From positions 1-64,000 of the forward strand of contig JAQUCE010000004.1 of assembly GCA_028686345.1 (NCBI GenBank): a stretch of DNA of 64,000 bases, given 5' to 3'. The stretch is from Kiritimatiellia bacterium. Lineage in GTDB: Bacteria; Verrucomicrobiota; Kiritimatiellia; RFP12; UBA1067. Shown here piece by piece: positions 854 to 19,012 of the stretch. Positions within the stretch are counted from its first letter, which is position 1, and every line of letters begins with the position of its first letter. The notes below the pieces were generated by a model. The model did no database searches and was not told where the DNA came from. It saw only the letters and a list, made by a program, of their open reading frames with translations. The translations under genes and the position numbers were made by a program.

Positions 854-1618
854 ATGAATTACACAAAATTGATTGCAGGTATCTCCTGCTTTCTAACCCT
901 TTTGCAACTCCAAACTGTTTTTGCGCAGGAAGAGCAGGAAGAGCAGGAAGAGCAGGAAGAGCAGGAAGAGCAGGAAGTGCAGGAGGAGCCACCAAGGATT
1001 GCCTACAACGCCGGAACGTATTGGACTAGCAAATACATAACCGAAGGCCGGGACAACCTTGGCAGCGGCGGCATGTTTATTGCAGATGGAACAATTGATT
1101 TCTATGGGTTTACCGCCGGGGCGTGGTATGGCCTGGCAGATACGATCTCTTATGACGAACTTAAGATGTCCCTGGAATATGGGTTTGAATGGGGGCCGAT
1201 GGAGTTGTCGGCCGGTTACACGCGGCTTGAGTTTTTTAAGGATGACACAGCTGATAATGAATTGATGGTCGGGGCTGAGTTGAATTGCATCCCCGGCGTG
1301 GTACCAGGGATTGAGTATGTCTATTCAACTGAGGCGGATGGCAGTTTTGTGGAGTTATCACTGGGCGTACCGATCAAATGTTCTAAATGCGGGCTGGTGT
1401 TGATCCCTTATATTCTCGAAGGGTTTGATTTTGGTTTTGCCTCCCCTGACTACAATGGATTCAATAACTTCCAAGTGGGGGTGGTTGCTGATTACGAACT
1501 CACGGAGCATCTCTGCCTGGTGGGCTCAGTTAACCATTCGTGGGCCAATCAGGATGTACGCAAAGATGGGGGCGGCGATGAAAGCTGGCTCTCAGTCGGC
1601 CTGATGGCAACATTTTAA
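854..1618 (+). CDS. Predicted outer-membrane beta-barrel protein with N-terminal EQE repeat
   Basis: The 254-aa product starts with a signal peptide (MNYTKLIAGISCFLTLLQ.. to the cut after VFA, about residue 24). A polar run of Q-E-E units follows, encoded by six 9-bp repeats. The rest alternates short amphipathic strands rich in Gly and aromatics (GFTAGAWYGLAD, KMSLEYGFEWGPMELSAGYTRLEF) and ends in a terminal Phe, as in barrel proteins recognised by BamA. Two Cys in IKCSKCG (about residue 175) could form a disulfide. The overall look is similar to small barrel families of the Gcw_chp/TorF type, but I do not recognise a specific family or ligand. It has its own upstream promoter, and the next gene is 137 bp away. 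Placement in the outer membrane is inferred. Confidence 0.65.
   Translation: MNYTKLIAGISCFLTLLQLQTVFAQEEQEEQEEQEEQEEQEVQEEPPRIAYNAGTYWTSKYITEGRDNLGSGGMFIADGTIDFYGFTAGAWYGLADTISYDELKMSLEYGFEWGPMELSAGYTRLEFFKDDTADNELMVGAELNCIPGVVPGIEYVYSTEADGSFVELSLGVPIKCSKCGLVLIPYILEGFDFGFASPDYNGFNNFQVGVVADYELTEHLCLVGSVNHSWANQDVRKDGGGDESWLSVGLMATF
926..979 (+). repeat. Six 9-bp tandem repeats inside a coding region
   Basis: CAGGAAGAG is repeated five times with a sixth variant copy (CAGGAAGTG), encoding Gln-Glu-Glu units directly behind the signal peptide. Because the unit is a multiple of three, slippage would change length without breaking the frame. Confidence 0.9.
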
Positions 1619-1754
1619 CGCAGCTCTCCGCCGCATCCGAATTTTGTTTGTAAAAGTGTTAGCCGCTCTATGCGATGTCAATTTAAAGCTCTACAGCGTG
1701 CTAGACTGCAATTCATGAGGTGTGGTATCATATTTTGATCAAGATTGGAGTGCC

Positions 1755-3803
1755 ATGAGAATTAAAAAAATTTTGGTTATATTCGCAATCACGCTTAGCG
1801 TTGGCTTGTGTCAGACGAATGCGCAGATTGCGGAGCCTGTTCCCGCTGCCGGGATCGAGCTGCCTATGCAGAACTATCTGAGTGCGGCGGCCGGGATGGT
1901 TGAGCTTTTCGTGACCGTGCCAGAGGATTGGCCGTCAAAGGCGGAGCAGACGTTATTCCATGTTGGTGAGCAAGCGCACACGCATGTCACGCTGTTCTTT
2001 CGTAACGGCAACCTGATCGCCGTTTATAAAGCTGACAAGGAGCACCATGCCTCGATCATCGGCGCCGCAGCCCGGCAATGGCGTGCCGGGGAACAGCACC
2101 GAGTTCAGTTTCAATGGAGGGCTGAGGACGGCAAGGTCGCCTTTTACCTGCGTCTGGATGATCAGCTTGTGGGGGGCGCGCACGGTGCTCAGATCCAAGA
2201 GTGGCCAGCAGCCTTGTATCTGGGCCGGCGTGGTAATCGGCAGCCATGGCGCGGAAGTATTGACCGCGTTTCACTGCGCGCTGACCCGCCGCCGCTGCCG
2301 GAGTACCGGCCCGGCACCCGCACCATCAGTGTTGACGCGTCGCGCGTTGAAGGCCCTCTCTACAACTTCTGGTCAATCGCCAATTACACCAGCCAGGAGC
2401 AGTTCACTGATCCAAAATACCAGGCGCAGCAGAGAACCCTGCGCCCTGGTATGCGCTCGGTTAACTGTGTGCGTCTGTTGGGTGGGAGAAACGACCGGCG
2501 TAACCGCTGGTTTCTGGGAGCCGATGAAAAGGGGGCGCCTCGCTTCGATTTTACAGGTCTGATCGCCAGCCTCCAGGGGATCATAGAGGCTGGATACACA
2601 CCGCGGATTGTGCTGGACAACGTGCCGCTGGAGATGTCGGGCGATGTCAAGATGGAGAAGTACGGCAACACCTCGCCGCCGCAAAAGTACGCTCTCTGGG
2701 AGGGCTATGTGGAGGGGGCGCTCCGTGCCATGGTCGCGGCTTTTGGTCAGGAGCGGGTTGCCGGCTGGCGCTTCAGGGTAGGCACTGAGCCGGATCTCTA
2801 TCCAGGCCACTGGCAGGGTACGCAGGGTCAGTATGAGCACCACTATCTCCGCACCGTGGCCGCGGTGCAGCGAGTTATACCGAAACCGGAGATCGGGTTC
2901 GGAAATATTATAGATATAAAGCATGGCAAATGGGGGCTTGAGTTGGTGGATTTTGCTGCCACGAATAACTTGCCCATGAGCTTTTTATCCTCTTCGTGGT
3001 ATGGGCGGGTTGGTGAGGACAGCACCGGATTTGAGCAGAATGTGAAGGCAATGCGCTCTCGGCTGAGCCAATATGAGCGGTTCAGGAAAGTTCCGCTGGA
3101 GATTGCAGAGTTCGGGATCTTACAGGATGAGTATAACCAGCGGCTTTGGAGCGGTGATGCCACAGAGTGGGGTGCGAGTTGGTATGCGGGGATCGCGGCC
3201 AAGGTATACGCTCTGAATGTGGCTGAGTTGCACCAATGGTCCACCACCACCTTAGGACTTCCACATCCGCGCACGCATATTCACACCCTGCTGGAGCCGT
3301 TGGTAGGGGGTCAGCGGCTGGCAGTGACTCTCTCTGACGTCACTTCGCAGGCGCACAGCGGCGCCATTGCTGCACAGCGTGGCGGCTCTATCTATGTTCT
3401 GCTTTACAATCACCGTCCTCTGCGCACTCCGAGCGTGCGGGAAACCGTGCACTTGAAGGTCAGCGACTCGCGCATGAAGTCACCGGAGCCCTGGCAGCTC
3501 TCGGAGTGGCGGGTGGATCGCGACCATGGGGTGTTTATCCACGCCTTGACTGAAGATTGCGGGCAGGCCGGGTTGACCCCGCTGCCAAATTCCGCTGTTC
3601 TGGGTGGTGATATCCACCGCCGCTGGGGCGCAGAGGGTATGGAAATATTGAGGGCGAATTTTAACCGCTACCAAAAGCTGGCCAGCTTGCCGCAAACTAT
3701 CACTGGTCAGAATTTAACGGTCGAGAACGGGAGCGTTACCATGACCATTGAGATGCCTGGCCACAGTGTGCGTTTGCTGAAGCTCACGCCGGCCGGATCG
3801 TAA
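1755..3803 (+). CDS. Secreted GH39-like glycoside hydrolase with LamG-like N-terminal domain
   Basis: The ATG at 1755 is preferred over an in-frame start at 1722, because TTGGAG stands just before it and a signal peptide (MRIKKILVIFAITLSVGLCQTNAQ) begins there. The product is 682 aa. Residues about 45-185 look like a LamG/concanavalin jelly roll (LFHVGEQ.., VALYLGRRGNRQPWRGSIDRVSL). From about residue 195 a clan GH-A style TIM barrel follows. Expected catalytic residues are the acid/base Glu in GTEPD (about residue 345) and the nucleophile Glu in LEIAEFG (about residue 449), the arrangement of GH39 beta-xylosidase/alpha-L-iduronidase-type enzymes. A beta-sandwich tail ends the protein. The substrate is unknown; a plant- or algal-type polysaccharide or a glycosaminoglycan would fit the sulfatase and other secreted enzymes nearby. 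Confidence 0.7.
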   Translation: MRIKKILVIFAITLSVGLCQTNAQIAEPVPAAGIELPMQNYLSAAAGMVELFVTVPEDWPSKAEQTLFHVGEQAHTHVTLFFRNGNLIAVYKADKEHHASIIGAAARQWRAGEQHRVQFQWRAEDGKVAFYLRLDDQLVGGAHGAQIQEWPAALYLGRRGNRQPWRGSIDRVSLRADPPPLPEYRPGTRTISVDASRVEGPLYNFWSIANYTSQEQFTDPKYQAQQRTLRPGMRSVNCVRLLGGRNDRRNRWFLGADEKGAPRFDFTGLIASLQGIIEAGYTPRIVLDNVPLEMSGDVKMEKYGNTSPPQKYALWEGYVEGALRAMVAAFGQERVAGWRFRVGTEPDLYPGHWQGTQGQYEHHYLRTVAAVQRVIPKPEIGFGNIIDIKHGKWGLELVDFAATNNLPMSFLSSSWYGRVGEDSTGFEQNVKAMRSRLSQYERFRKVPLEIAEFGILQDEYNQRLWSGDATEWGASWYAGIAAKVYALNVAELHQWSTTTLGLPHPRTHIHTLLEPLVGGQRLAVTLSDVTSQAHSGAIAAQRGGSIYVLLYNHRPLRTPSVRETVHLKVSDSRMKSPEPWQLSEWRVDRDHGVFIHALTEDCGQAGLTPLPNSAVLGGDIHRRWGAEGMEILRANFNRYQKLASLPQTITGQNLTVENGSVTMTIEMPGHSVRLLKLTPAGS

Positions 3804-3884
3804 GCAATGGAATGGGCTTGCCACGGAGCAGGAGATTGTTTCATTGAAACAAAGGCTGTTGCCTGCGCTGCGCACCCGCACCAG

Positions 3885-4244
3885 TCAAACTGCGGCAGCC
3901 ACAATCTTGTTGTTCTCATCCAGCCGGACAACTTTGGGCTTGTGAGTCAGAACCTCTTCTTCGTTGAGGGTGCACCAGGCCATGACAATCAATCGGTCGC
4001 CGATCTTGCCTTTGTAGGCGGCGGCTCCGTTTAGGCAGCAGATACCGCTGCCACGCTCGCCCACGATCGCATAGGTCTCAAGGCGCTCGCCGTTGCTCAG
4101 ATTGGCGATCAGCAGCTTCTCGTAATTGACAATTCCAACGGCTTCCATCAGGTCCAGATCAATGGAGAGGCTGCCCTCATACTCTTTTTCTGCCTGTGTC
4201 ACCCGAATATGATGTAATTTAGATTTTAATAATTTGCAATACAT
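3885..4244 (-). CDS. panD: Aspartate 1-decarboxylase
   Basis: PanD converts L-aspartate to beta-alanine for pantothenate and coenzyme A synthesis in the cytoplasm. The 119-aa length is normal. The self-processing site Gly24-Ser25 is present in YEGSLSID, where cleavage creates the pyruvoyl cofactor. The family blocks 'TYAIVGERGSGICCLNGAAA' and 'GDRLIVMAW' are intact, with the extra Cys pair in GICCLNG unusual. It is convergent with the glycoside hydrolase gene (81 bp apart) and stands alone; panB/panC are not in the window. No clear terminator separates the two genes. Confidence 0.95.
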   Translation of the reverse strand: MYCKLLKSKLHHIRVTQAEKEYEGSLSIDLDLMEAVGIVNYEKLLIANLSNGERLETYAIVGERGSGICCLNGAAAYKGKIGDRLIVMAWCTLNEEEVLTHKPKVVRLDENNKIVAAAV

Positions 4245-4425
4245 TCTAATAACCCTTTAAAAATCACCTATAAGAATATTATTTAATGGACCATTTGGCA
4301 AGAGCGCATTTTCGTAGATGTGCCAGAACATAGTGCCGGTTGCGCCTTTAAGCGGGATGGAATGGGAGGAATGGGAGATGAGAGGTATAGGATTGACGGG
4401 AAGTATGTTTGCTAATTCATCCTGT

Positions 4426-4573
4426 CGACTGCAAACGGCACGCGATGGTCAGGCACGCGGTATGGTCAGCCGCATAGCGACTGACCTACTCCCGCGCTTA
4501 CCCCACTTGACAAGACGCGGAGCAGGAGGTCGTTCGCTATGCGGGCGACTGCAAACGGCACGCGAGTGGTCAG
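4426..4573. repeat. Paired direct and inverted repeat between panD and the surface-protein gene
   Basis: CGACTGCAAACGGCACGCG occurs at 4426-4444 and 4546-4564, exactly 120 bp apart, each followed by a 'tggtcag' string. Between them, 'gcatagcgactgacct' (about 4471-4486) and 'aggtcgttcgctatgc' (about 4527-4542) form an inverted pair. A related 'cgcccgcatagcgaacgac' lies at about 26670. The second copy overlaps the 3' end of the minus-strand gene. The remainder of the gap 4245-4425 is AT-rich and then has a short 'ggaatggga' duplication; I see no gene in it. Confidence 0.75.
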
Positions 4574-6905
4574 CGTATCAATATGATTGTTCCAAAGAGG
4601 GGTTTGGTGAAGGTATAGGTTCCGTTGATCACTGATCCTGTTCCTCTGATTCTGCCGATACGCTGGTGATGTCCGCCCAGATCCAGCGTCGTGCCGGCGG
4701 CAAGGTAAACAGCAGAGTTTGGCAGGGCATCCGCGCCGGAGAGCAGCAGGGTTCCGCCGCTTACGAAGGTGTCACCCTCGCAGGCGTTGTTGCTGGAGCT
4801 GATCTGCATGGTGCCGGCGCCGCTCTTGTTGAATCCTCCGTCACCGGAGAGCTGGCCTGAGAGGTTGATGGTATTTCCATTGCTGTTGAAGGTGATCGCT
4901 GTCTCGTTGGTGCCGTAGAGCGTTGCATTGACCGTGATCTGGATGTTGGTGACCGCATTGATCACGCCGCCACAGCCACCCAGTTCGACCAAGGTGCGAG
5001 AGGGGTTGTCGGTTGTGAGGGCATTGACTGCCGGGTTGATGCCGGGGTTGGCGGAGCCCAGGTTGAGCACGCCGCCGCAGATGGTGAGCCGTCCGTAACC
5101 GGTGTTGTCAGCACGCTCTTTGACTGTTATGCGTGTGGTGTTGACCTCGCCGCCGCTGATCTTGAACCACCCTTGGCCATCGGTGCCCATGCAGATGTCA
5201 TTGGTCTTACAGGTCATCACGCCGCCGCTGATCTCCCAGGTAGTGCGCGCAGGGGGATAGTGACCCATGCGGAAACCGTTCTCTTCGGCGGTGTTGCCGG
5301 TTGCGGTAATGGTTCCACCGACTTGGTGGACAATGCTGGTGAAGCTGGCTCCTTCTTTACTGCCGTTGCCGCAGATAAAGGCGCGGGCAATCAGGGAGCA
5401 GCCGTCGGTGACTGTTAAGCGGGCTGTTATTTTGGCAGGGGCGACGACATAGTCCTGCAGCTCGGCCATGACAAACTCGCGGCTCAACAGGTTCAGGGTG
5501 GCGTTGTTGGTGAGTGTCAGGGATCCGTCACTGAGATTCCATTTGGGTGAGTTGGTGGAGTTGGAGTTGTTGAGGGTCATGGAGCCGCCATGGCGCACAA
5601 TTATGTTGCCCCCGTTCACAAAGTTATTGGAGAGGGAGTAGCTCCCGGTGCGGTCATAGTAGAGGTGGCCGAAGACACTGATGTCGCCACTGCCCAGCCG
5701 GCCGGTTGTAGATGAGCCGTCGGGAAGACCAACCGACACTCTGCTGTTGGCACCGACAACGGTGGCACCTGCGTAAGAGTTGGTGTTGCCGGTGATATAG
5801 CACTCGCCTCCGTGGTTTTGGGCGATTCCTCCGGGCCCGTCAATATAACCGGAGACAAGTACCTTCCGCCTGCTGGCAGCGACAAAGTTCAAAGTGTTGC
5901 TGACGGTTATGTGGCCAGTGAAGTCAGCGGTCTTGTTTTCATCTCCCTGGCTGAGCGCGGCGTTCGCGCCAGTGCAGATAATGCGCTCGGAAATAGCCCG
6001 GTCGCCCCAGACATTGAGCGTGCCATTGTTCACAAAGGTGTTGTAGTCACTGCCGCCCAGCGCCTGCGCGTGCTGGATTGTGAACATCCCTTGGTTAATA
6101 TGGATAGGGCTGCCATTCAGAGCGCGGGAGACAGCTATTTCAGCACCGCCTGTTTTTGTGAGGGTATGCCCGTTGCCAGTGTAAGTTCCAGAGCTGCTTA
6201 AGTCCCAACGCATCGGCGTACTAATGGTTGTGTCGCCGACCAGGGTCAAGTTTCTGAACCCGAAGTTGTATGTTCCGCTGGTTGCCGAGCTGAAAATGGC
6301 ACCGCTGCCGTTAAAGCCCGCCCCGGAAACAATGATGTCATCAGCGCGGTTTGCAGGGTAGGAGCCGTTGAGGTCCAGCGCAGCGCCACTTTCAATAATA
6401 GTTTCGTTACCAGCGCCGGTAGCCCCCAGCGAGCCCACTGTCCGGTAGGCGAGCTTGAGAATACCTGTTTTCACGTGGGTGACCCCGGAGTAGGTGTTGG
6501 CAGCGTTGAACTCCAGGATGCCTGCCCCCTCTTTGGCCAGACCCGCTGATCCGCCCACCGTTACAGTGAGCTTGCCAGTGCAGCCAGCTGCCACGGTTGC
6601 GATGGCCGGGCTGACGAAGGTCAGTGACCCGTCCTTGTCGGCATCGGCAATTTCATAGCCGTTGGCCGAGAAGTTCAGAGAGTCAACTGTGACGTGATCG
6701 CCGAGTTCCACGGTCTCACCGGTGCCAGTGAAGTGGGCACTGTTACCGTTGACCCAGAGGAGCCGCTGTCCCAGTTGGCGTTGATCAGATTCCAGATGTT
6801 GTTGGGGCTGGTGTCATTCCAAAATTGATCTGCAGCCTGGGTGGATAACAGTGCCGAACTGGTTATCAACAGGGCACTGCAAAATACGAAATTACGAGGT
6901 TTCAT
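4570..6905 (-). pseudogene. Autotransporter-associated beta-strand repeat protein, interrupted by one frameshift
   Basis: Translation would start at ATG 6905 (RBS AAGGAG, signal peptide MKPRNFVFCSALLITSSALLSTQAA). It reads ..QFWNDTSPNNIWNLINANWDSGSS and then leaves frame at about 6755-6765. The next frame continues with VNGNSAHFTGTGETVELGDHVTVDSLNF, the expected continuation, and stays open to 4570. One missing base in 'tcctctgggtcaac' explains the break; restoring a T would give SSWVNGN. The remaining 713 residues carry the Gly/Asn/Thr-rich passenger beta-helix pattern of PF12951/TIGR02601 (LSGDGGFNKSGAGTMQISSSNN, SGGTLLLSGADALPNSAVYL). No C-terminal barrel or PEP-CTERM-like signal is seen, so anchoring is unclear. 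It could be a true pseudogene, a phase-off state or a sequencing error. Confidence 0.75.
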
Positions 6906-7531: not shown

Positions 7532-7563
7532 GCCGGAAATAAGGAAAGAGTATGGAGGAGAAA

Positions 7564-8361
7564 ATGGTAGCACTCGTGATTGGCGCGCATCCGGATGACA
7601 TTGAATTCATGATGGCTGGAACGGTACTGCTGCTGCAGCGTGCGGGGGTGGAAATTCATATCTGCAATCTGGCGAATGGTTGTTACGGCTCGCAGGTGTA
7701 TGGCAAAGCTGAAGCGGCGCGCGTGCGCGCGTTGGAGGCGCAGGCGGCGGCACGTGTGGCCAGCGCAGTGTGGCATCCCTCGCTGTTTGATGACACCGCT
7801 ATTTTTTACGATGCGCCATCGCTGGCCAAGGTGACGGCGATTGTGCGGCGCGTCTGTCCGGATATCGTGCTGACTCTCTCGCGCTATGATTACATGGAGG
7901 ATCACGAGTACGCCTCACGCTTGGCCAGTTCGGCAACCTTTAACCGCTGCCTGACGAGTTATGTGAGTGATCCGCCGGAACCGTCGTTCAACAAGCCCGT
8001 GGCGGTGTACCACTCGTTGCCCCACTCGCTGATGGATATGCAGCGCACTCCGGTGAACCCGGAGTTTGTTTTTGATATCAGTGATGTTATGAGTCTCAAA
8101 CGTGAGATGCTGGGCCAGCATCGCAGCCAAAAGGAGTGGCTGGATGCCACGCAAGGCATGGGTTCATACGTTGAGAGCATGGCGGAGATCGCACGCGAAG
8201 TTGGTGCGCGGTTCGGTGGTTGCACCTATGCTGAAGGGTGGCGGCGACACAACCACATGGGGTATTGCGATCCAACCTTTGCCCCCCTGCAAACTATTTT
8301 AAAGGATGTGCTGAAGATGGTTGGCGACGATAACGGATTACGATTAAAAACCAGCTCTTAA
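7564..8361 (+). CDS. PIG-L (LmbE-like) family deacetylase
   Basis: Zinc-dependent N-deacetylase of the PIG-L/LmbE superfamily, which removes acetyl groups from N-acetylglucosamine-containing or related sugar conjugates. The hallmark AHPDDIE is near the N terminus (Zn ligands His and the second Asp), followed by NGCYGS. A DHEYASRL segment supplies the later histidine, and VAVYHSLPH is the conserved strand near the C-terminal third. The product is 265 aa, usual for the family. ATG 7564 is chosen because GGAGG at 7555-7559 is well placed; an ATG at 7552 is in frame and possible. No signal peptide is seen, so the protein is cytoplasmic. It stands among secreted glycan-degrading proteins, which suggests processing of an imported amino-sugar. 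The substrate is not predictable. Confidence 0.85.
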   Translation: MVALVIGAHPDDIEFMMAGTVLLLQRAGVEIHICNLANGCYGSQVYGKAEAARVRALEAQAAARVASAVWHPSLFDDTAIFYDAPSLAKVTAIVRRVCPDIVLTLSRYDYMEDHEYASRLASSATFNRCLTSYVSDPPEPSFNKPVAVYHSLPHSLMDMQRTPVNPEFVFDISDVMSLKREMLGQHRSQKEWLDATQGMGSYVESMAEIAREVGARFGGCTYAEGWRRHNHMGYCDPTFAPLQTILKDVLKMVGDDNGLRLKTSS

Positions 8362-8930: not shown

Positions 8931-11861
8931 ATGAAGGTGTGCAGGGTGAGATGCAAAGCTGTCGTATATGCTGTCGCCAGTTTGGGAATCTTGTTGATCA
9001 GCGGGGCTTTTGCGGCTGACAGCCATCTGGCTTTGACCTGTGACACCTTCTCTTACCAGATCAGCGCAACAGGCAGAAACATCGCCTTTATTGACTTGGC
9101 GCAGAAAAAAAATTATCTGAAGGCTTCCGAAGGGGAAAAAGCCTATTGCGCTTTTGTGACTAAAGGGGCGAAGAGATATCACCCCACATCGGCGATGTTT
9201 GACAACCGTGTGCTGCGCCTGGTCTTCGCCGAAGTGGGGGTGAGCGCCTCAGTACGGGTTAAAAATGAAAGGACACATCTTGTTGTCGAGGTGGAGGATG
9301 TGAGCGGCGCGCCGGATTCCTTTACCTTTGTCAATGTGCCGCTGACGCTTGAGGCCCTGCCGACCGAGCTGTTTGCAGCGTGTTCGCTCTCACTCAATCT
9401 GCACACACGGGTTGATCAGCTTCCGGCCCTGCATAACGCGCTTGAGGCCAGTTGCTATCAGCGATTCGGCTTCAAAGGTGCACGGGCCGCTGTGATCGGT
9501 GTTCCGCAAAAAGAGATCCTGCCGGTGATCCGCGAGATCATGCGGAAAGCTGCGCCCGAGCTCCCTCTCAGCGATCAGGGCGGCGCCTGGGCACTGGATG
9601 CCAAGGAGGGGTATGGCTCTTACCTCATGAACTTCGGCTCGCTGACCGAAGAAACGGTTGACGATTGGATCGCCAGCTGCCGGGAGATTGGTTTTAATCA
9701 GATCGACAACCACGGCGGCGGAGCTTTTTTCAACTTTGGAAGTTTCGAGCTTAACCGTCAAAAATTTCCTGAGGGCTGGCAGAGCTATAAAAAGGTGGTT
9801 GACAAACTGCACAAGGCAGGGATCTCCTCGATCCTGCACACATACACCTGCTATATTGACCAAAACTCTAAATATGTTACGCCGATTCCGCATCCGGACC
9901 TTGATCTGTCAGCCAAGTTCACGCTAGCCGCGCCTTTGAACGAAACAGCGACAGAGATTGTGGTGAAGGAGTCGACCAAGGAGGTTTCCACCAAAAAAGG
10001 CTACATGGAAACAAGTAATCAAACCTTGCGGATCGGCGATGAGATCATCGAATTCACCGACGTGACTCGCGAAGCGCCTTACACCTTCACTGGATGCAAG
10101 CGCGGCTTTCACGGGACTAAGATTGGCGTTCATCAGGCAGAGCAACAGGTTGGCATCCTCAAAACCTTCTGGAGCGGCAGGTACATACCGGAGCCGCATT
10201 CGCCCTTGTTTGACGAGGTGGCCCGGCGCACAGCGGAGATTGTCGACGAGTGTGGATTTGACGGCGTCTATCTCGACGCGATTGAGGGGCTGCAATACAT
10301 GTGGGGCAAGGAGAACTACTGGTATTATGGCGATAAATTTGTATTTGAGGTGATGAAAAACCTCAAAAAACCGGTTGGACTAGAGTATGCGGGGATGATT
10401 CACCATTGGTGGCATTACCGCAGCCGTTATCAGGCTTGGGATTCGGCCTCGCGGGGGTACAAACGTTTTATGGATATTCATATCGCGGCCATGAAGGCTG
10501 GCGAGGAGTATCAGCATGGAAGTTGGGGAGGGTATTGGCCTGAGATCGAAAAATTCGCGGCCATGAAGGATTTCGGACTTTATCTGCCGCTTCAGCTGGG
10601 GTGGTGGCGATTCAATCCATGGAGATCTCCGAAACACGACACCATGTTCCGTGACGATATTGAATATGTCTGCTGCAAAATGATCGGCAATAACGCGGGG
10701 CTTGCTCTGAACGGAGTTGTTGACGCAAAGACGCAGGAGGCGCACCCGGTCTATCGCGACTTTATCGCGATGATTCGCCGGTACGAAGAGCTGCGTCATC
10801 AGGGGTATTTCAGCGAGGAGGTCTGCGCCCAGCTCCGCCAGCCTGGCAAGGAGTTTACTCTCTTTAAAACAGAGGACAACCAATGGAATTTCAAGCCGAT
10901 TGTTTATAAAAAGCATAAGGTCGAAGGGGTTGCGCATTCAAGTGCCCGGTGGCAGTTTGACAACCAGTTTGCGGCCCAGAGGGTGAAGCTTCGGTTGGAG
11001 GCGCTGGTGTCAGCCGTTACCAATGACAATCCACAACAGGTCACTCTGCTTGATGCCGCAACGGTTGGCGAGTTCAAAAAGCTCAGGAGCGCGACCGGGG
11101 TTGAGTGCGCGCTGCGGCAGTCGGACGAGAAGGTGCCGGCAACCGGCGAACCCGTTGTTGAGTTGAGCGCGTTGAGCACCGGCGAATCTCCCCGTAAGGA
11201 GAGCTGGGGGTGTTTGGCGCAGGTGCGCGAGCCCGCGCTAAAGCTGGGTGACAAGCAGGCGCTGGGGGTTTGGATCAAGGGTGATGGCAACGGTGAGCTC
11301 CTCGATATCAAGCTCTGCAGCGGTGGGGCTGGGATGTGGCTGAATCAGAGCAGCCATTACATTGAGGTTGATTTTATTGGTTGGGAGTATTTCACGCTGA
11401 TTGAACCGGAGTCAACACGGATTACGGATTACAAGTGGCCCGTGCTTTCAAAATACTATGTGTACGACAACCATAACGGTGTTGCGGATTACGGGAGCGT
11501 GAAAGAGGTGCAGATCTGGGTCAACAACCTGCCTGCCAACAAAAAGATAAGTTGCCTGATCGGGCCGCTCAAGGCACTTCCGACCGTGTTGGTCAAGGTG
11601 GAGCATCCCGCGATCACGATCAACGGCCAAACCATCACCTTCCCTGTTACGATGGAACCGGGCATGTACCTCGAGCTCGCATCAGCCACTGCGTGCAAAC
11701 TCTACAGCCCGAGCGGCAAAGTGATCCAGGCGGTGATTCCGAGCGGCGATGTGCCGACCCTCAGGGGTGGCGCGAACGAGTTGTCTCTCTCTGCCAAGAC
11801 AACAGATCAGAGCAACAGCCGGATGCAGGTGACGGTCTCTGCCGAAGGGGCGCCGCTTTGA
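8931..11861 (+). CDS. Large secreted glycoside-hydrolase-like protein, family not assigned
   Basis: The 976-aa product has a signal peptide (hydrophobic AVASLGILLISGAFA, cut about residue 29) and RBS GGAGG. Residues about 30-200 form a beta-rich N-terminal domain. About 210-640 looks like a TIM barrel with many aromatic and acidic residues: SCREIGFNQIDNHGGGAFFNF, ILHTYTCYID and DECGFDGVYLDAIEG (about residue 435-450), the last a plausible catalytic Asp/Glu strand as in GH36/GH31/GH101-like barrels. Between about residues 325 and 405 sits a beta insertion with LRIGDEIIEFTD and FTGCKRGFHGT. A beta-sandwich tail runs from about 740. The next gene starts 41 bp downstream, so the two are probably co-transcribed. 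Enzymatic activity and substrate are inferred only. Confidence 0.55.
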   Translation: MKVCRVRCKAVVYAVASLGILLISGAFAADSHLALTCDTFSYQISATGRNIAFIDLAQKKNYLKASEGEKAYCAFVTKGAKRYHPTSAMFDNRVLRLVFAEVGVSASVRVKNERTHLVVEVEDVSGAPDSFTFVNVPLTLEALPTELFAACSLSLNLHTRVDQLPALHNALEASCYQRFGFKGARAAVIGVPQKEILPVIREIMRKAAPELPLSDQGGAWALDAKEGYGSYLMNFGSLTEETVDDWIASCREIGFNQIDNHGGGAFFNFGSFELNRQKFPEGWQSYKKVVDKLHKAGISSILHTYTCYIDQNSKYVTPIPHPDLDLSAKFTLAAPLNETATEIVVKESTKEVSTKKGYMETSNQTLRIGDEIIEFTDVTREAPYTFTGCKRGFHGTKIGVHQAEQQVGILKTFWSGRYIPEPHSPLFDEVARRTAEIVDECGFDGVYLDAIEGLQYMWGKENYWYYGDKFVFEVMKNLKKPVGLEYAGMIHHWWHYRSRYQAWDSASRGYKRFMDIHIAAMKAGEEYQHGSWGGYWPEIEKFAAMKDFGLYLPLQLGWWRFNPWRSPKHDTMFRDDIEYVCCKMIGNNAGLALNGVVDAKTQEAHPVYRDFIAMIRRYEELRHQGYFSEEVCAQLRQPGKEFTLFKTEDNQWNFKPIVYKKHKVEGVAHSSARWQFDNQFAAQRVKLRLEALVSAVTNDNPQQVTLLDAATVGEFKKLRSATGVECALRQSDEKVPATGEPVVELSALSTGESPRKESWGCLAQVREPALKLGDKQALGVWIKGDGNGELLDIKLCSGGAGMWLNQSSHYIEVDFIGWEYFTLIEPESTRITDYKWPVLSKYYVYDNHNGVADYGSVKEVQIWVNNLPANKKISCLIGPLKALPTVLVKVEHPAITINGQTITFPVTMEPGMYLELASATACKLYSPSGKVIQAVIPSGDVPTLRGGANELSLSAKTTDQSNSRMQVTVSAEGAPL

Positions 11862-11902: not shown

Positions 11903-14900
11903 ATGACTCTTAAGTTTTTACTCCGCACTGCACTGCTTATCGCAAGTGCGGGCGTGCTGCATTTAAATGCAGCCTTTGCACCGGTCATAACCGAGTTCAT
12001 GGCCTCCAATGACTATTCGCTTGAGGATGAGGATAACAGCTCCTCTGACTGGATTGAAATATACAACCGCGGGGATATGGCAGGTGATCTTGAGGGGTGG
12101 TCCCTGACCGACTCTGACAAAAACCTGGCCAAGTGGGTTTTCCCTGCCACGCCACTGCCGGCCGGCGCATATCTGGTGGTTTTCGCATCCAATAAAGACC
12201 GTCGTGTCAGCGGACGTGAGCTGCACACAAATTTTAAACTTGGGGCGGAAGGTGAATATCTGGCCCTGGTTAAACCGGATCGAATAACAATTGCGAGCGA
12301 GTACTCACCTAAATACCCTATCCAGCTGACGGATATCTCCTATGGTCTGACCATGGCGAGAACCAAGAGCATGTTTGTCACAACCAACACAACGGCGCAG
12401 ATATTGGTACCTGAAGACGACACCTTGGGGTTATCATGGACTCAGAGCGATTTTATCCCCATTGGTTGGAGCAGCGGCAGCTCCTCAATTGGCTTTGACA
12501 GAGGAGCGGTGCCGGTTGCCGGACTGGTCGCTCACTGGCCGCTTGATGAACAGCCGGGTGTGGTTGAGATAAGCGATGTCAGCGCGGGCGGCCACCACGG
12601 ATCTGCCACAGCCGGTGTTACCCCGGGCGCGCCCGGTGCCGCAAACATGACCGCAACCGCAATCGCATTCAGCAGCGGCTCAATCGACGTGCCTTACAAT
12701 GCGAAACTGAACCCGGCTGATTTTACAGTCGCAGTTTGGGCGCGTCCGACGACCGGGGGACGAGATTATCGTTCAGTTATAACATCACGGCGCAGTTCAT
12801 CAGGTTCCTATGAGGGCTATATCATCTACCTTGATCCATCCAACAGGTGGCAGTTCTGGACAGGGTCAGGCAGTGCTTGGAGGCAGCAGGATGGCCCTAA
12901 CGCGGTCATGGATCAGTGGACTCACATCGCAATAACATTTGACTCTGCAACAAAAACCAAAGCCATCCACATTAATGGCACCTTGTTTGCCAGTGTGACG
13001 AACCAGGGTTATGTTGCCAACAGCACGCAGCCGCTGCACATCGGCAGCGGCGGTGATGCTGGTACCCAATATTATTTCTATGGTGCGATTGATGATGTTG
13101 CCTTGTTCAACATCGCACTGGATTCCACGGCCATTCAGGATATTATGAGCAGCAGTGTCCCGGAATCCGGATTAATCGATTACCGCGAGATCATTCAGAA
13201 TGATCTGGAAACAGCCATGTATGCGATCAACAGCTCGGTGTACATGCGCATTCCATTCATCGCAACCAACATTTCCGCGCTTGAGAGCATGACTTTAAAG
13301 ATGAAGTATGATGACGGTTTTATCGCCTATCTGAACGGAACATTGGTGGCATCACGCAACGCGCCGACCACACCGCAATACAACTCTCAAGCAACCGAGC
13401 GCAACCATGATATCGGAGCTGTGCTCTTTGAGGAGTTTAATATCTCCAGCTCTTTACCTGCCCTGCAGAGCGGCGAGAACGTGCTTGCGATACATGGGCT
13501 TAATTTCAGCCCGGCCAATGAAGATTTCCTGATTGTTCCGGAGCTGAGCGTTTCAACCGCACCAACTCTTGATCTTGCGCAGAGCGGCTACTTTCTTGAT
13601 CCAACCCCCGGGGCCGAAAATGCGAGATCCGCCAGTACGCTCGCTCCGATGATCCCCGCCAGCGGACACGCCCCCTATGAGCCCCTTTCGACCCAGAGCC
13701 TGGTTGTAACCGCTAAGGTCGCGCAGACATTTTATCCGATCAGCTCCGTGACCCTGCACTACAGAGCAATGTACAACCCTGAGTCAACCCTGGTAATGCT
13801 CGACAACGGAACCGGGGGAGATGCAGTGGCCGGGGATGGAGTGTACAGCGCAACTATCCCAGCAGGAACAGCGGCGGCCGGCGAGATGCTGCGCTACTAC
13901 ATCACGGCTGAAGACTCCACAGCCAACACAATGCGCGCCCCGCGCATCACCGACACCGAGGGCTCTGCGCAGTCGCCCGAGTATTTTGGAGCGCGGATAC
14001 AGAGTCCGTCCGTCACGAGCCAGCTTCCCATCTTCTACTGGTGGACTCAGAACCGCTCCGCCAGCCACACACGGGCCGGTACCCGTTGTTCGGTCTATTA
14101 CAACGGAGAGTTTTATGACAATGTCTTTGTGCGCCAACGCGGCGGCTACACCAACAACGGCTCTCAAAAATTTGTCTTTGATAAAAGCCATCGCCTCTAC
14201 GTAAACGAAAAACTGGGGCGCGTGCGCGAGATTAATATGAACGCCCAGGGGGTTGATGCCTCCTATATTCGCCAGCCTCTCGCCTTCCAGCTCTTTGCAG
14301 AGTCCGGCACACCGGCCTGTGAAGCCTTTCTGACATTGATGCGTGTTAACGGCGGAGTTGACCGTGTCGGCGTATTGATTGAACAAGTGGATGATAATTT
14401 TCTTAAACGGAACAACCTTGATCAAGCCAGCGCCCTCTACAAATGCGTCCAGAAATCCAATTACAACGCCTGCCTCAGCGAGCAGCCTGATGGCATTGAA
14501 AAGAAATTACCGGAAGATGATAATGATTTCTCTGATCTTCAGGCTCTGATCAATGGGCTGGCGCTTGTCGGAGAAAATGAGCGGCGCGCCTTTCTCTTTG
14601 ATAACTTTAATGTGCCTGAGGTTGTCAGCTACCTGGCAGTGCGCGCCGTAATCCAGGACGTTGATGATATTCGCAAAAACTTCTACATCTGCCGCGACAC
14701 CAATGACGCTGGCGAGTGGCGCATTTTTCCGTGGGACAAAGATCTCACCTTTGGCAAGCCAGGAGATGCTGGCATCTATGCGACGCACCCGTTTCTTGGA
14801 GATTTTAATCATAAAAAACCAAACGCGAATCAGTGGAGCATGTTGCTCGAGATGCTCTATACACAGCCAGAGTTCCTTGATATGTATCGCCGTCGCACAC

Positions 14901-17386
14901 GAACCATAATGGATACATATCTGCTCCCCCCTGGAACACCTGCCGGCGAGTCGTGGCTGGAGCAGCGGGCCGCGGCGCTCTTCGCTCCTGCCGTCATTGA
15001 GCAAGGGCCATCATTATCAGAGTACAACGCCGTGATAAACTACTTTACGGCCAAGCGCGCCAACCTCTATGTCGACCACCACGCGAGCAAACTGCCCGCC
15101 GATGTGGCTGGCATTCCGGATCAGCAACCAGTGGATGCTGCAATCGTGTTCGGCAATTATGAGGTCAGCCCTGCCTCCGGCAACCAAGCAGAAGAGTATA
15201 TCGAGCTGCTCAACACAAATGTGTTCTCAGTGGATATCTCAGGGTGGTCTATCAGGGGCGGCGTAGTGCTGACATTCGCCCCGGGCACCGTGATCCCCGC
15301 AGGCAAAACCCTCTATGCCTCCCCATCGGTCAAAGCGTTTAGAGAGCGAAGTTTGTCACCTAAGGGCGGAGAGGGATTGTTTGTTGTCGGTGGTTACAGC
15401 GGACATCTCTCAGAACTCGGTGAAAGCCTCACCCTGGCTGACAAAGCCGGCAGGATTATTGACACCTTGAGTTACAGCGGCTCCCCCTCTGCTGCTCAGC
15501 AGAACCTGCGCATCACTGAGGTGATGTACCATCCCAGATTGGACGAATTCGGCGACATCTCCGAACGGGACTTTGAATTCATTGAGATTAAAAATATTGG
15601 CTCTACTGCCCAGGATTTGACTGGCGTACACTTCAGCGATGGCATTGAGTACACCTTTGATTCAGGCGTTCTGGCCCCTGGCAGCCTGGTTGTTGTGGCC
15701 CGCACCCCATCTGTTTTCGCAACACGCTACAACACAAACTCCATTCACGTTGTTGGTCCATACAACGGAGTTCTCTCGAATGGAGGCGAAAAAATCACGC
15801 TCAAGGACTCCCTGCAACAGACCATTGCCTCATTCACATACAGTGATGGCCGCGGCTGGCCCCTGGCCGCTGATGGTGCTGGTCACAGCCTTGTGCCGAC
15901 TGTTGACGGCGGTATCAAGGGCGCGCAACTGGACTACCCCGGCAGCTGGCGTGCCAGCACCTATCGCGATGGATCGCCGGGAGCTGATGACCCGCAGCCA
16001 TTTAACACCCTGTTTATCAACGAGATTGCAGCTAACACCACTTATTCAAACCCGGCGCGACCTGAGTATAACTCTAATGATTGGCTTGAGCTTTTTAATG
16101 CCGGCAACGCTGGGCTCCCGCTGGAGCACTGGTACCTCTCCGATGATTGCGCTCAGTTGAAAAAATGGGCTATCCCCTCTGCGCTATCATTGTCTGGCGG
16201 GGAGTGGATCGTATTTGATGAGGTCACCGGATTCAACAGCCCGCTCAACTCAGGCTTTGCTCTCAAGAAAACGGGCGAGCAGGTTTTTCTCTCCTATCTG
16301 CCCGGCACAGAGGCGGATCATGTGGCTGATGCCGTGCGATTCGAAGCGCAGGCCGCTAACACAACCTTCAGCCGCTACGCTGATGGCACCCCCGGCTGGT
16401 TCTCAACCGCTCCCACCCCCGCGGCGGCCAATCAGCGCCATGAACCCTGCGTTGTGATCAGCCGAATTATGTATCATCCAGCACCTGCGCCCAACAGCAG
16501 CGACAACAACACTGCCGATGAATACGTTGAGCTGCTCAATCCAACAGAGTTTAACGTGCCGCTGTGGAACGACGCAGGAACATGGTCGATTGGCGGTACC
16601 ATCACTTTGACACTCCCGCCGGCCACAACCATTCCGGCCAAGGAGCGGATTATCCTTGTCTCATTCAATCCGCAAACCAACCTCGTGGCACGCAGCGCCT
16701 TCATTGCCGCCCACGGGATGACCAATCTCTCTGTCACACTGATAGGTCCGTTCGCAGGCGCGCTTGACAACAAGGTCGGCAGGGTCACCCTGGCGCAGCC
16801 ATTGGCATCCGACACCCCCGGAGCTGATCCGTCATGGGTCACAGTTGATGAGGTCATTTACTTCAACGCAGCTCCCTGGCCTGCTGGCGCAGATGGCACC
16901 GGAGCATCGATTGAGAGAATACTTGCTGACCGCAGTGGCAGCGATCCAGCTAATTGGAGGGTGGGTGGCAATTTGCCTGACATGCGGGATATGGATCTTG
17001 ATGGACTACCCGACCTGTGGGAGCTGGCCTGGTTTGGGGGAACGCATGCGTCACCATACAAAGATGACGATGCCAACAACATCTCCAATCTCGATGAGTA
17101 CATTGCGGGAACAATTCCCACTGATCCAACCAGTCGTTTTGAAGTACAGATCAATCACACCGCAGGAACACCCGCGCTTGAGTTCACCGCGCTCGCGGCA
17201 TCTGGCGCCGGATATGAGGGTCTTACCCGGCTGTACACACTTGAAAGCGCCACTTCTCTGCGTAACCCCGCCTGGCAGCCGGTGTCAGGCTACATCATGA
17301 TCATAGGCGCAGATCAGATCATCAGATATAACACTTTCACACACAGCACAGAGTTCTTCCGTGCCCGCGCCTGGCTGGCGGATTAG
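11903..17386 (+). CDS. Giant secreted protein: lamin-tail domains, LamG-like domain, CotH kinase-like domain
   Basis: The 1827-aa product starts with a signal peptide (MTLKFLLRTALLIASAGVLHLNAAFA). Domains in order are: a lamin-tail domain (about 25-150, ITEFMASNDYSLEDEDNSS.DWIEIYN); a LamG/concanavalin domain (about 210-410); a carbohydrate-binding-like sandwich (about 430-550); an Ig-like stretch (about 590-670); a CotH-type domain (about 710-1060) with IRQPLAFQLF, VGVLIEQVDDNFLKRN and FPWDKDLTFG; then four more lamin-tail-like domains (about 1080-1620). The C terminus has DMDLDGLPDLWELAW and NNISNLDEYIAGTIPTDPT, a calcium-binding-like tail common in PVC surface proteins. CotH is an atypical protein kinase in Bacillus spores; whether this secreted copy phosphorylates anything is unknown. 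It follows the 8931 gene by 41 bp. Confidence 0.8.
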   Translation: MTLKFLLRTALLIASAGVLHLNAAFAPVITEFMASNDYSLEDEDNSSSDWIEIYNRGDMAGDLEGWSLTDSDKNLAKWVFPATPLPAGAYLVVFASNKDRRVSGRELHTNFKLGAEGEYLALVKPDRITIASEYSPKYPIQLTDISYGLTMARTKSMFVTTNTTAQILVPEDDTLGLSWTQSDFIPIGWSSGSSSIGFDRGAVPVAGLVAHWPLDEQPGVVEISDVSAGGHHGSATAGVTPGAPGAANMTATAIAFSSGSIDVPYNAKLNPADFTVAVWARPTTGGRDYRSVITSRRSSSGSYEGYIIYLDPSNRWQFWTGSGSAWRQQDGPNAVMDQWTHIAITFDSATKTKAIHINGTLFASVTNQGYVANSTQPLHIGSGGDAGTQYYFYGAIDDVALFNIALDSTAIQDIMSSSVPESGLIDYREIIQNDLETAMYAINSSVYMRIPFIATNISALESMTLKMKYDDGFIAYLNGTLVASRNAPTTPQYNSQATERNHDIGAVLFEEFNISSSLPALQSGENVLAIHGLNFSPANEDFLIVPELSVSTAPTLDLAQSGYFLDPTPGAENARSASTLAPMIPASGHAPYEPLSTQSLVVTAKVAQTFYPISSVTLHYRAMYNPESTLVMLDNGTGGDAVAGDGVYSATIPAGTAAAGEMLRYYITAEDSTANTMRAPRITDTEGSAQSPEYFGARIQSPSVTSQLPIFYWWTQNRSASHTRAGTRCSVYYNGEFYDNVFVRQRGGYTNNGSQKFVFDKSHRLYVNEKLGRVREINMNAQGVDASYIRQPLAFQLFAESGTPACEAFLTLMRVNGGVDRVGVLIEQVDDNFLKRNNLDQASALYKCVQKSNYNACLSEQPDGIEKKLPEDDNDFSDLQALINGLALVGENERRAFLFDNFNVPEVVSYLAVRAVIQDVDDIRKNFYICRDTNDAGEWRIFPWDKDLTFGKPGDAGIYATHPFLGDFNHKKPNANQWSMLLEMLYTQPEFLDMYRRRTRTIMDTYLLPPGTPAGESWLEQRAAALFAPAVIEQGPSLSEYNAVINYFTAKRANLYVDHHASKLPADVAGIPDQQPVDAAIVFGNYEVSPASGNQAEEYIELLNTNVFSVDISGWSIRGGVVLTFAPGTVIPAGKTLYASPSVKAFRERSLSPKGGEGLFVVGGYSGHLSELGESLTLADKAGRIIDTLSYSGSPSAAQQNLRITEVMYHPRLDEFGDISERDFEFIEIKNIGSTAQDLTGVHFSDGIEYTFDSGVLAPGSLVVVARTPSVFATRYNTNSIHVVGPYNGVLSNGGEKITLKDSLQQTIASFTYSDGRGWPLAADGAGHSLVPTVDGGIKGAQLDYPGSWRASTYRDGSPGADDPQPFNTLFINEIAANTTYSNPARPEYNSNDWLELFNAGNAGLPLEHWYLSDDCAQLKKWAIPSALSLSGGEWIVFDEVTGFNSPLNSGFALKKTGEQVFLSYLPGTEADHVADAVRFEAQAANTTFSRYADGTPGWFSTAPTPAAANQRHEPCVVISRIMYHPAPAPNSSDNNTADEYVELLNPTEFNVPLWNDAGTWSIGGTITLTLPPATTIPAKERIILVSFNPQTNLVARSAFIAAHGMTNLSVTLIGPFAGALDNKVGRVTLAQPLASDTPGADPSWVTVDEVIYFNAAPWPAGADGTGASIERILADRSGSDPANWRVGGNLPDMRDMDLDGLPDLWELAWFGGTHASPYKDDDANNISNLDEYIAGTIPTDPTSRFEVQINHTAGTPALEFTALAASGAGYEGLTRLYTLESATSLRNPAWQPVSGYIMIIGADQIIRYNTFTHSTEFFRARAWLAD

Positions 17387-17698: not shown

Positions 17699-19012
17699 CT
17701 CTGCCCATTACCCTTAAATAAGTGCGGACAAAACAAGTCACACCGTGTACTTTAGCGGCATGAAAAAGCAAAACCAGATTAAGCGAACATTGTCGCAACC
17801 CGAAAGCATAGAATACATTCAAAGCCTCTTGAACCGCTGAAGGGTGTACCCGGTCAGGTCGGAGAGATCTCTGAGTTGACTTTGGTGGTAGTGCGTACTA
17901 CCGACCAGATGCGGATATGGAATGAGATGATGATCTGCGAACATCCGCAGGGAGCCGCTCCTCTGATGGGGCGTCAGCTGCGTTATCTGATCGGTTCCGA
18001 ATATGGGTGGCTTGGCGGGTTGGGATTTGCGGCAGCGGCTCTCAATTTGGAAGATCGTGATAAGTGGATCGGCTGGGACAGGGAGCAGCGTCGGGAGTAT
18101 CTGCAAATGGTGGTGGGGATGAGCCGTTTTCTAATAAGACCAAGTGTACAGTGCAAGAATCTGGCTTCAAAGGCGCTTAGCATGAGCATGGAGCTTATGC
18201 CCGATGATTTTGAGCGTCAGTACAACTACCGGCCATGGCTGGTCGAAAGTTTTGTGGATACCAGTCGTTATTCAGGAACATGTTACCGGGCGGCGAACTG
18301 GATACCGGTGGGAAAAACAAAAGGCCGCGGAAGACAGGAGCGTTTTCAAAAAGCGTCACTGAGTATTAAGGAAATTTATGTATACCCGCTTGACAATGAT
18401 TTTCGAAAACGAATGGGACTGGATTCAGATGCGGGCCTGGGCGCATTGGGGCCTACAGACGGCTTAGACGCGGACAACTGGGCGGAAAACGAGTTCGGCG
18501 GTGCATCTCTGGGTGATGACAGACTGAATAAGAGGCTTGTGAGTGTGGCTGCGGCTAAAGCGGATAATCCCGGGCGCGCCTTCAGCGGTGTGGCGGCAGG
18601 CAACTGGCCCGCAGTTAAGGCTTATTACAGAATGATTGATCAGCCGGATGACTCACACTCTACTTTCGCCGGAGAATACCAAGGCCATTGAGTGGTTTCT
18701 GCTGACCACGGTCAATATCACTTCTAGGAAGAGAAACCCCGGATCTCCCCGCAGAGGTACTTTTCTCCGACATAGAATTACAGACCTTGCGTGCGTACTC
18801 TAAAAAAAGGTTGTGAGCCCCCGAAATTGTTGGGTGACACAGTGGAACTTGCGGCAAAGATCGGTGGATATCTTGATCGAGAAAACGACCCGCCTCCCGG
18901 CCACCAAGTGCTCTGGCAGGGATATACTGAGTTTCAGTTTATGTGTATGGGAGTTGCGTTGCTGGAGGACACATGATATTGTGCAGTTCTAAATTAAGGG
19001 TAAAGGGCAGGG
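17699..19012 (+). mobile_element. Decayed IS4/Tn5-like insertion sequence with recognisable ends
   Basis: The left end CTCTGCCCATTACCCTTAA (from 17699) and the reverse complement of the right end, CCCTGCCCTTTACCCTTAA (ending at 19012), match at 20 of 25 positions and so are terminal inverted repeats. CTAG stands immediately outside both ends (17695-17698 and 19013-19016), a candidate 4-bp target duplication, although CTAG is self-complementary and might be part of the repeat. The enclosed transposase gene is broken by deletions and frameshifts, so the element cannot move by itself. Confidence 0.75.
17760..18976 (+). pseudogene. Transposase remnant: DUF4338 (DruA-like) domain fused to Tn5-type transposase
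   Basis: Pieces of one protein lie in several frames. MKKQNQIKRTLSQPESIEYI begins at 17760 and stops at once. 17876-18691 encodes a DUF4338-like domain (LVVVRTTDQMRIWNEMMICEHP, MGRQLRYLIGSEYGWLGGLGFAAA) followed by the Tn5-type N-terminal DNA-binding motif (GDDRLNKRLVSVAAAKADNP, WPAVKAYYRMIDQ). Then the catalytic middle is missing. C-terminal fragments follow at 18675-18731 (TKAIEWFLLTTVNITS), about 18755-18812 (VLFSDIELQTLRAYSKKR) and 18811-18976 (KIGGYLDRENDPPPGHQVLWQGY). The DDE residues are lost. DUF4338 is also the DruA component of Druantia defence, so an automated label 'DruA' would be misleading here. Confidence 0.85.

Follow-up and report, generated by a model that had tools for sequence, protein, structure and literature searches.

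The described families that come closest to the protein considered here are glycoside hydrolase (GH) families 13, 31, 36 and 101. GH13 enzymes carry an Asp at the end of strand beta4 and a domain, termed domain B, inserted after beta3. The Asp of the GH31 motif TDMNEP and that of the GH101 motif YVDAY are taken here to be the nucleophiles, and PDB titles name the GH101 mutants D764 and E796. The alpha-galactosaminidase of Flavonifractor plautii (FpGalNase; 9ayu, 9awt, 8x1b), a GH36 enzyme, joins an N-terminal beta-sandwich to a barrel, and its mutants D463A, C513A and D532A are nearly inactive, as reported in its description (PMC11762096). Here we analyze a gene located in the first 64,000 nucleotides of contig JAQUCE010000004.1 of a Kiritimatiellia bacterium (assembly GCA_028686345.1), the whole stretch being called the window. 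Its 976-residue product is probably an exported, retaining alpha-glycosidase related to GH36, GH31 and GH101 that forms a family of its own among the libraries tested.

The open reading frame (ORF) runs from ATG to stop, and the gene is counted as real because relatives (44–79% identity over the best segment) are found at 13 loci of other genomes, mostly at full length. Ten of these loci hold a single full-length frame, two (L003 and L013) lie on cut contigs, and in L002 the homolog is spread over two ORFs of 592 and 393 residues (positions 1567–4554), by frameshift or assembly error. Promoter and terminator scans of the locus gave background level. A preliminary description of the window had proposed a glycosidase-like barrel with a beta insertion that belongs to no nameable GH family. 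The motifs on which it drew are present, namely DECGFDGVYLDAIEG at residues 439–453, GDEIIEF at 369–375 and FTGCKRGFHGT at 386–396, and the absence of a family name holds against both libraries scanned: Pfam returned only YodE (E 0.17) with no GH model above its cut-off, and NCBIfam returned 0 families for the 976-residue protein. A PDB sequence search with the single protein gave one match only, a ciliary protein at E 0.039. As judged from sequence and model, the product is a real and widespread alpha-glycosidase-like protein with a phage-tail-like insertion and a predicted activity, unclassified in these two libraries.

The structural model was predicted from an alignment of 32 rows, comprising the window protein and 31 of 44 loci; left aside were 13 loci, namely truncated or frameshifted ones, the window's own copy, an additional fragment of a gene that was included, and distant matches of partial length. 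The model (predicted local distance difference test, pLDDT, 89.9; predicted template modelling score, pTM, 0.86) consists of an N-terminal beta-sandwich, a triosephosphate isomerase (TIM) barrel, a CBM11-like domain and a C-terminal beta domain. Both the barrel and the insertion of the preliminary description are thus borne out by prediction, with the fold now placed in the GH36/GH27/GH31/GH101 neighbourhood and the insertion likened to phage tail or baseplate proteins. Ranked by Foldseek against the PDB, the whole protein finds GH101 endo-alpha-N-acetylgalactosaminidase (3ecq, 5a58, 5a59; E 1.4e-14), then FpGalNase (3.4e-13), followed by GH31 and GH129. The best VIA match is FpGalNase 9ayu (Z 16.1, 449 residues, 5.3 Å, 12% identity), followed by other GH36 enzymes (12.7–14.2), GH31 (13.3, E. 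coli alpha-xylosidase 1we5) and many GH13 chains (about 13, up to 13.3), families absent from these matches not being excluded thereby. GH13 differs in that most of its VIA ranges start near residue 220, so that the N-terminal sandwich is not common to both, and no sequence match to that family was found. The CBM11-like domain (model residues 700–888) matches 6r31 (VIA Z 13.1, 3.7 Å, 165 residues); Pfam CBM_11 matches 20 of the 32 members at E up to 1 (best 1.8e-5) and gives no match in the window protein itself. As far as the model can tell, the resemblance to GH36, GH31 and GH101 is one of common architecture and not of close kinship.

Profile links to the same families are weak but consistent. 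When the family profile was compared with PDB sequences, only FpGalNase entries fell below E 0.001 (3.4e-4, or 1.3e-4 without the insertion), and the match is confined to the stretch between beta2 and beta3, where the GDWALNPEKFPNG of FpGalNase aligns with the Gdyevntnkf PeG stretch of the enzyme family. The hhalign comparison with 15 GH36 sequences (2.9e-5) overlaps the same stretch. With the insertion removed, local hhalign gave 2.3e-5 for GH31, 2.8e-5 for GH36 and 5.7e-5 for GH101. The Pfam models for GH101 (PF12905), GH31 (PF01055) and GH129 (PF11308) have no match in the window protein. GH129 as the nearest family was rejected, as its hhalign value of 0.18 amounts to no profile signal, though it does appear in the Foldseek list (5opq, E 8e-11, TM-scores 0.27/0.36).

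The candidate catalytic residues follow from these alignments. Local hhalign places D449, within FDGVYLD, on the Asp of GH31 TDMNEP and on that of GH101 YVDAY (three GH101 rows compared), which points to D449 as the putative nucleophile; H303 and W494 are equally invariant across the 32 rows, and R499 is as conserved as D504. The acid/base stretch of GH31 does not align. D504 is weakly preferred as the acid/base because its distance of 19 residues from E485 equals that between C513 and D532 of FpGalNase (PMC11762096). The GH101 alignment speaks for E485 instead, placing it on the Glu of WTEFD, in the global alignment only, at a probability of 43% and with three GH101 rows; either residue may be the acid/base.

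The insertion, folded alone, reaches a pLDDT of 94.0, and E371, R391 and T396 within it are present in 32 of 32 members. It was compared by means of an alignment of 29 of the 32 rows, L026, L027 and L043 being dropped as near-duplicates. Of these 29 insertions, 28 match the PHROGs tail protein family phrog_1101 at E up to 1, the best at 2e-8. Taken alone, the insertion of the window protein matches phrog_1101 at 4e-6 and the baseplate wedge family phrog_2885 at 1.6e-5. When the whole protein is scanned, phrog_2885 (6.4e-4) and phrog_11439 (0.0021) are the only tail families to remain. Three of four shuffled controls gave no PHROG match, and the fourth gave two families of unknown function (0.018 and 0.14) and no tail family. 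Pfam Rcc01698_C matches 23 of the 29 insertions at E up to 10 (best 2.6e-4) and stays below its cut-off in the window insertion (18.6 bits against 27). A fold search of BFVD returned 38 matches at E 0.001 or better, the best at 1.6e-6. As PHROGs and BFVD hold viral proteins only, a confinement of the module to phages cannot be read from them.

Solved structures, which in the PDB are not restricted to viruses, point in the same direction. By VIA, for which a best Z of 7–8 is usual even where there is no clear match, the insertion is closest to a baseplate protein of phage JBD30 (8rk3_b, Z 9.3, 2.1 Å, 79 residues, 25% identity), followed by VP1 (8.7), GP4 (8.2) and the tail tip of phage Chi (8vjh_A, 8.1), all of them phage proteins, and thereafter by scores descending to about 5. 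The matched residues of the phage protein, 423–560, would be a tail-module domain that resembles the insertion. Foldseek with the insertion gave no PDB match at E 0.001 or better (best 5.7e-3), the PDB sequences gave nothing below 0.6, and tblastn against 50,697 phage records gave no match at E 0.01. On profile and model grounds the insertion resembles a phage tail or baseplate beta-barrel, the difference being that in the enzyme the module appears seated inside a glycosidase-like barrel.

Taken as an enzyme, the protein could function as follows. An alpha-linked sugar substrate, probably one with an amino sugar, would enter a pocket at the C-terminal ends of the barrel strands, where D449 would attack the anomeric carbon. 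D504 (or E485) would protonate the leaving group and then activate water, in keeping with a retaining mechanism. The insertion after beta3 may rim the pocket in the manner of GH13 domain B and shape its leaving-group side, and the CBM11-like domain may hold the polymer.

Several results weigh against this assignment. All TM-scores among the 50 Foldseek matches listed are below 0.5, with 0.31/0.42 for FpGalNase and about 0.3 for GH101, the latter at a root-mean-square deviation near 28 Å, and the VIA scores of GH13 and GH31 lie near those of GH36. The hhalign probabilities for GH31, GH36 and GH101 are just 66–76% (GH31 76%), the GH36 alignments reach beta2–beta3 and not the catalytic strands, and global hhalign is poor (GH36 E 0.88; GH31 8e-4; GH101 3.9e-5 at the low probability already given). 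Among 9 insertion-free barrels, drawn from 13 sequences, 4 have a weak Pfam match to AP_endonuc_2 (best 0.0056); the only other match is that of one barrel to DAGK_cat. Finally, E485 is missing in 4 of the 32 members and D504 in 1.

Three other explanations were weighed. It is somewhat unlikely that the protein belongs to an existing CAZy family for which there is no Pfam or NCBIfam model and no solved structure of similar sequence. In favour of that explanation, GH families are often newly established; beyond the GH36 stretch, however, no PDB chain matches the profile below E 0.001, and none was recognized as such a family in a literature search of open-licence papers, a weak absence. It is decidedly unlikely that the protein is a divergent member of GH36 (or of GH27 or GH31) that works by the usual mechanism of an alpha-galactosidase or alpha-galactosaminidase and whose insertion is decorative. 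FpGalNase is indeed the best VIA match and the source of the only PDB sequence matches below 0.001, and Melibiase (PF02065) matches 2 of the 32 members (best E 0.0035), yet the window protein itself has no Melibiase match at E up to 1. In the GH36 comparison set of 15 barrels, DDGW of beta2 is present in every row and corresponds to DNHG in the window protein, its first Asp aligning with His261, and the Trp of LWxEPE aligns with His303. The KWD that is invariant in the same 15 rows would be YLD at beta4, an equivalence drawn from strand position without direct alignment. None of the 15 barrels has an insertion of such size after beta3, and an insertion of this kind is not mentioned in the accessible part of the FpGalNase paper (PMC11762096). 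Given these departures from GH36 at beta2 and beta3, a sugar pocket unlike the one in alpha-galactosidases is expected. Least probable of all, and very unlikely, is that the barrel lacks catalytic activity or that the protein binds glycans at the surface, with the phage-like module and the CBM11-like domain doing the binding; tail modules usually hold or bind and pseudo-enzymes occur among TIM barrels, but the retention of D449 in all 32 members and of D504 in 31 is unlike a decaying active site. The probable reading stays that of an alpha-glycosidase family of its own.

Close relatives occur in Kiritimatiellae; in Thermoguttaceae and other planctomycetes (from goat and yak duodenum, and RUG-series genomes, the latter presumably from rumen); and in Bacteroidota, namely Dyadobacter and contigs labelled Daejeonella, Bacteroidetes and Sphingobacterium. 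At E 0.001, matches turn up in 25 of the phylum's 288 genomes, several of these matches being weak and partial; the window's own genome is among the 25 and carries a paralog of 31% identity. Seven genomes with a close homolog have 1 to 13 matches each, the 13 being those of one Kiritimatiellae genome (G288), where they represent 11 places and two short pieces of frames already counted. Such a number of copies in one genome is what a family of degradative enzymes may show. No plasmid copies were found at 1e-5. Planctomycete contigs carry two to three copies in tandem (L007, 1929–10790; L009, 2900–8646; L010, 4945–13269; L011, 4960–10835).

Table 1. Positions in the window of the enzyme gene, its predicted parts and candidate residues, and the neighbouring deacetylase gene.
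Feature	Position	Strand	Basis
PIG-L-type deacetylase, no evident signal peptide	7552..8361	+	Pfam PIG-L 3.8e-20
Enzyme gene, alpha-glycosidase-like, 976 aa, probably exported	8931..11861	+	ORF, homologs, model
Putative Sec-type signal peptide, residues 1–29	8931..9017	+	Sequence judged by eye; low-confidence helix 3–27 in model
N-terminal beta-sandwich, residues 30–205 (limits by eye)	9018..9545	+	Model strands; VIA alignment to 9ayu covers 33–646
TIM barrel, beta1–beta3, residues 206–305	9546..9845	+	G.y.vn..kfP.G stretch common with GH36; invariant H303
Beta insertion after beta3, residues 306–424, RGxxGT motif	9846..10202	+	Model; matches to PHROGs and to BFVD and PDB folds
TIM barrel, second half, residues 425–660 (limits by eye)	10203..10910	+	Model
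D449, inferred nucleophile, end of beta4	10275..10277	+	32/32; GH31/GH101 alignment
E485, alternative candidate acid/base, end of beta5	10383..10385	+	28/32; global GH101 alignment
D504, preferred candidate acid/base, after beta5	10440..10442	+	31/32; spacing to E485
CBM11-like domain, about residues 697–890	11019..11600	+	VIA 6r31; Pfam CBM_11 in family members
C-terminal beta domain, residues 891–976	11601..11858	+	Model strands only

The neighbours named in the preliminary description, a GH39-like enzyme, a PIG-L deacetylase and a sulfatase, all exist, and they had been read as signs of a complex glycan substrate. The deacetylase part of that suggestion stands somewhat better than the sulfatase part, with two lineages only behind it. 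The PIG-L gene of the window ends 0.6 kb upstream of the enzyme gene. In Daejeonella genome G290, which has seven PIG-L matches, the one closest to the window's (45%, the next being 28%) lies 13 kb downstream of the enzyme, and in L006 a PIG-L gene of 43.5% identity to the window's lies 2.5 kb downstream; these three form one clade (43–45%). As a PIG-L deacetylase of one clade recurs within 13 kb of the enzyme in two phyla, an amino-sugar substrate is hinted at. The window's PIG-L protein would act on imported products, as it has no evident signal peptide. A further PIG-L match is located 12 kb from the enzyme in G294. Pairing of enzyme and PIG-L as a rule was rejected: four of the seven genomes with a close homolog have no PIG-L on the enzyme contig, and the PIG-L near the enzyme in G288 (L001) is of another clade, with a closer relative (41%) on a different contig.

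A more specific proposal, which we hold to be speculative and rather unlikely in its full form, is that of a new GH family in which a phage tail-tip beta-barrel module, transferred in either direction, would serve as the functional analogue of GH13 domain B and form a new pocket rim in a GH36/GH31-type barrel. The enzyme would act on a conjugate of an alpha-linked N-acetylhexosamine, perhaps a glycopeptide linked through Ser/Thr. Such a substrate is hinted at by the GH101-like catalytic pair, by the PIG-L neighbour and by the genes for an M19 dipeptidase and a serine-dehydratase-like protein that immediately precede the enzyme in Daejeonella. If the alpha-glycosidase reading is right, the enzyme family, which occurs in three phyla or more and numbers about 11 genes in a single genome, would gain a catalytic hypothesis with named residues, open to testing on substrates with alpha-linked amino sugars such as the blood group A-converting enzymes cleave. 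A tail-type module would then also be at work as part of the active site of an enzyme from bacteria.

The sulfatase was set aside as a substrate clue. It lies 10 kb from the enzyme on the opposite strand, on the far side of an ORF that matches DruA and a transposase; none of the seven other genomes has a sulfatase on the contig of its close homolog, and sulfatase matches number 47 across the 5.3 Mb of the window genome. Against this decision stand the sulfatases found near the distant LamG-type paralogs L049 and L055, and those near three distant paralogs of G288 (C5 at about 0.7 kb, C15 at about 7 kb and C4 at about 10 kb). Of the intervening ORF (17876–18691, +), the first part matches DruA (9.7e-38) and a stretch near the end matches Tnp_DNA_bind (6.8e-12); the ORF is perhaps a fused or transposase-related fragment.

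Clustering of neighbouring genes, in which antisense ORFs were included, gave no cluster spanning all lineages. Neighbours common to at least three loci are Daejeonella-type sets, planctomycete sets (one of them extended by a single ORF of L061), a sulfatase cluster (window, L049 and L055) and a group that links L004, L005 and L012. The Daejeonella-type loci L005, L006, L008 and L012 have a conserved upstream set whose last members before the enzyme are M19 dipeptidase and a D-serine-dehydratase-like gene. Upstream genes in Daejeonella also include GFO/IDH, 3HCDH and a CBM9_2 protein. In Dyadobacter, RhaT is found near the enzyme. Downstream in the window, starting 41 bases after the enzyme stop, lies an ORF of 1827 residues (11903–17386, +) with five LTD stretches and CotH kinase and LamG matches. 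An operon with this protein was rejected, as the protein was absent from every cluster that united at least three loci.

Elsewhere in the window, the GH39-like gene (1722–3803, +; 2.3e-20) has a sub-threshold laminin G match, and its product weakly matches the NCBIfam alpha-1,4-L-rhamnosidase model (77.5 bits against a cut-off of 850). An autotransporter-like ORF with Passenger-associated-transport repeats is located at 4570–6711 (-), and an ORF at 55341–58124 (+) combines two stretches of FGE-sulfatase type (formylglycine-generating-like) with an InlB-type repeat domain.

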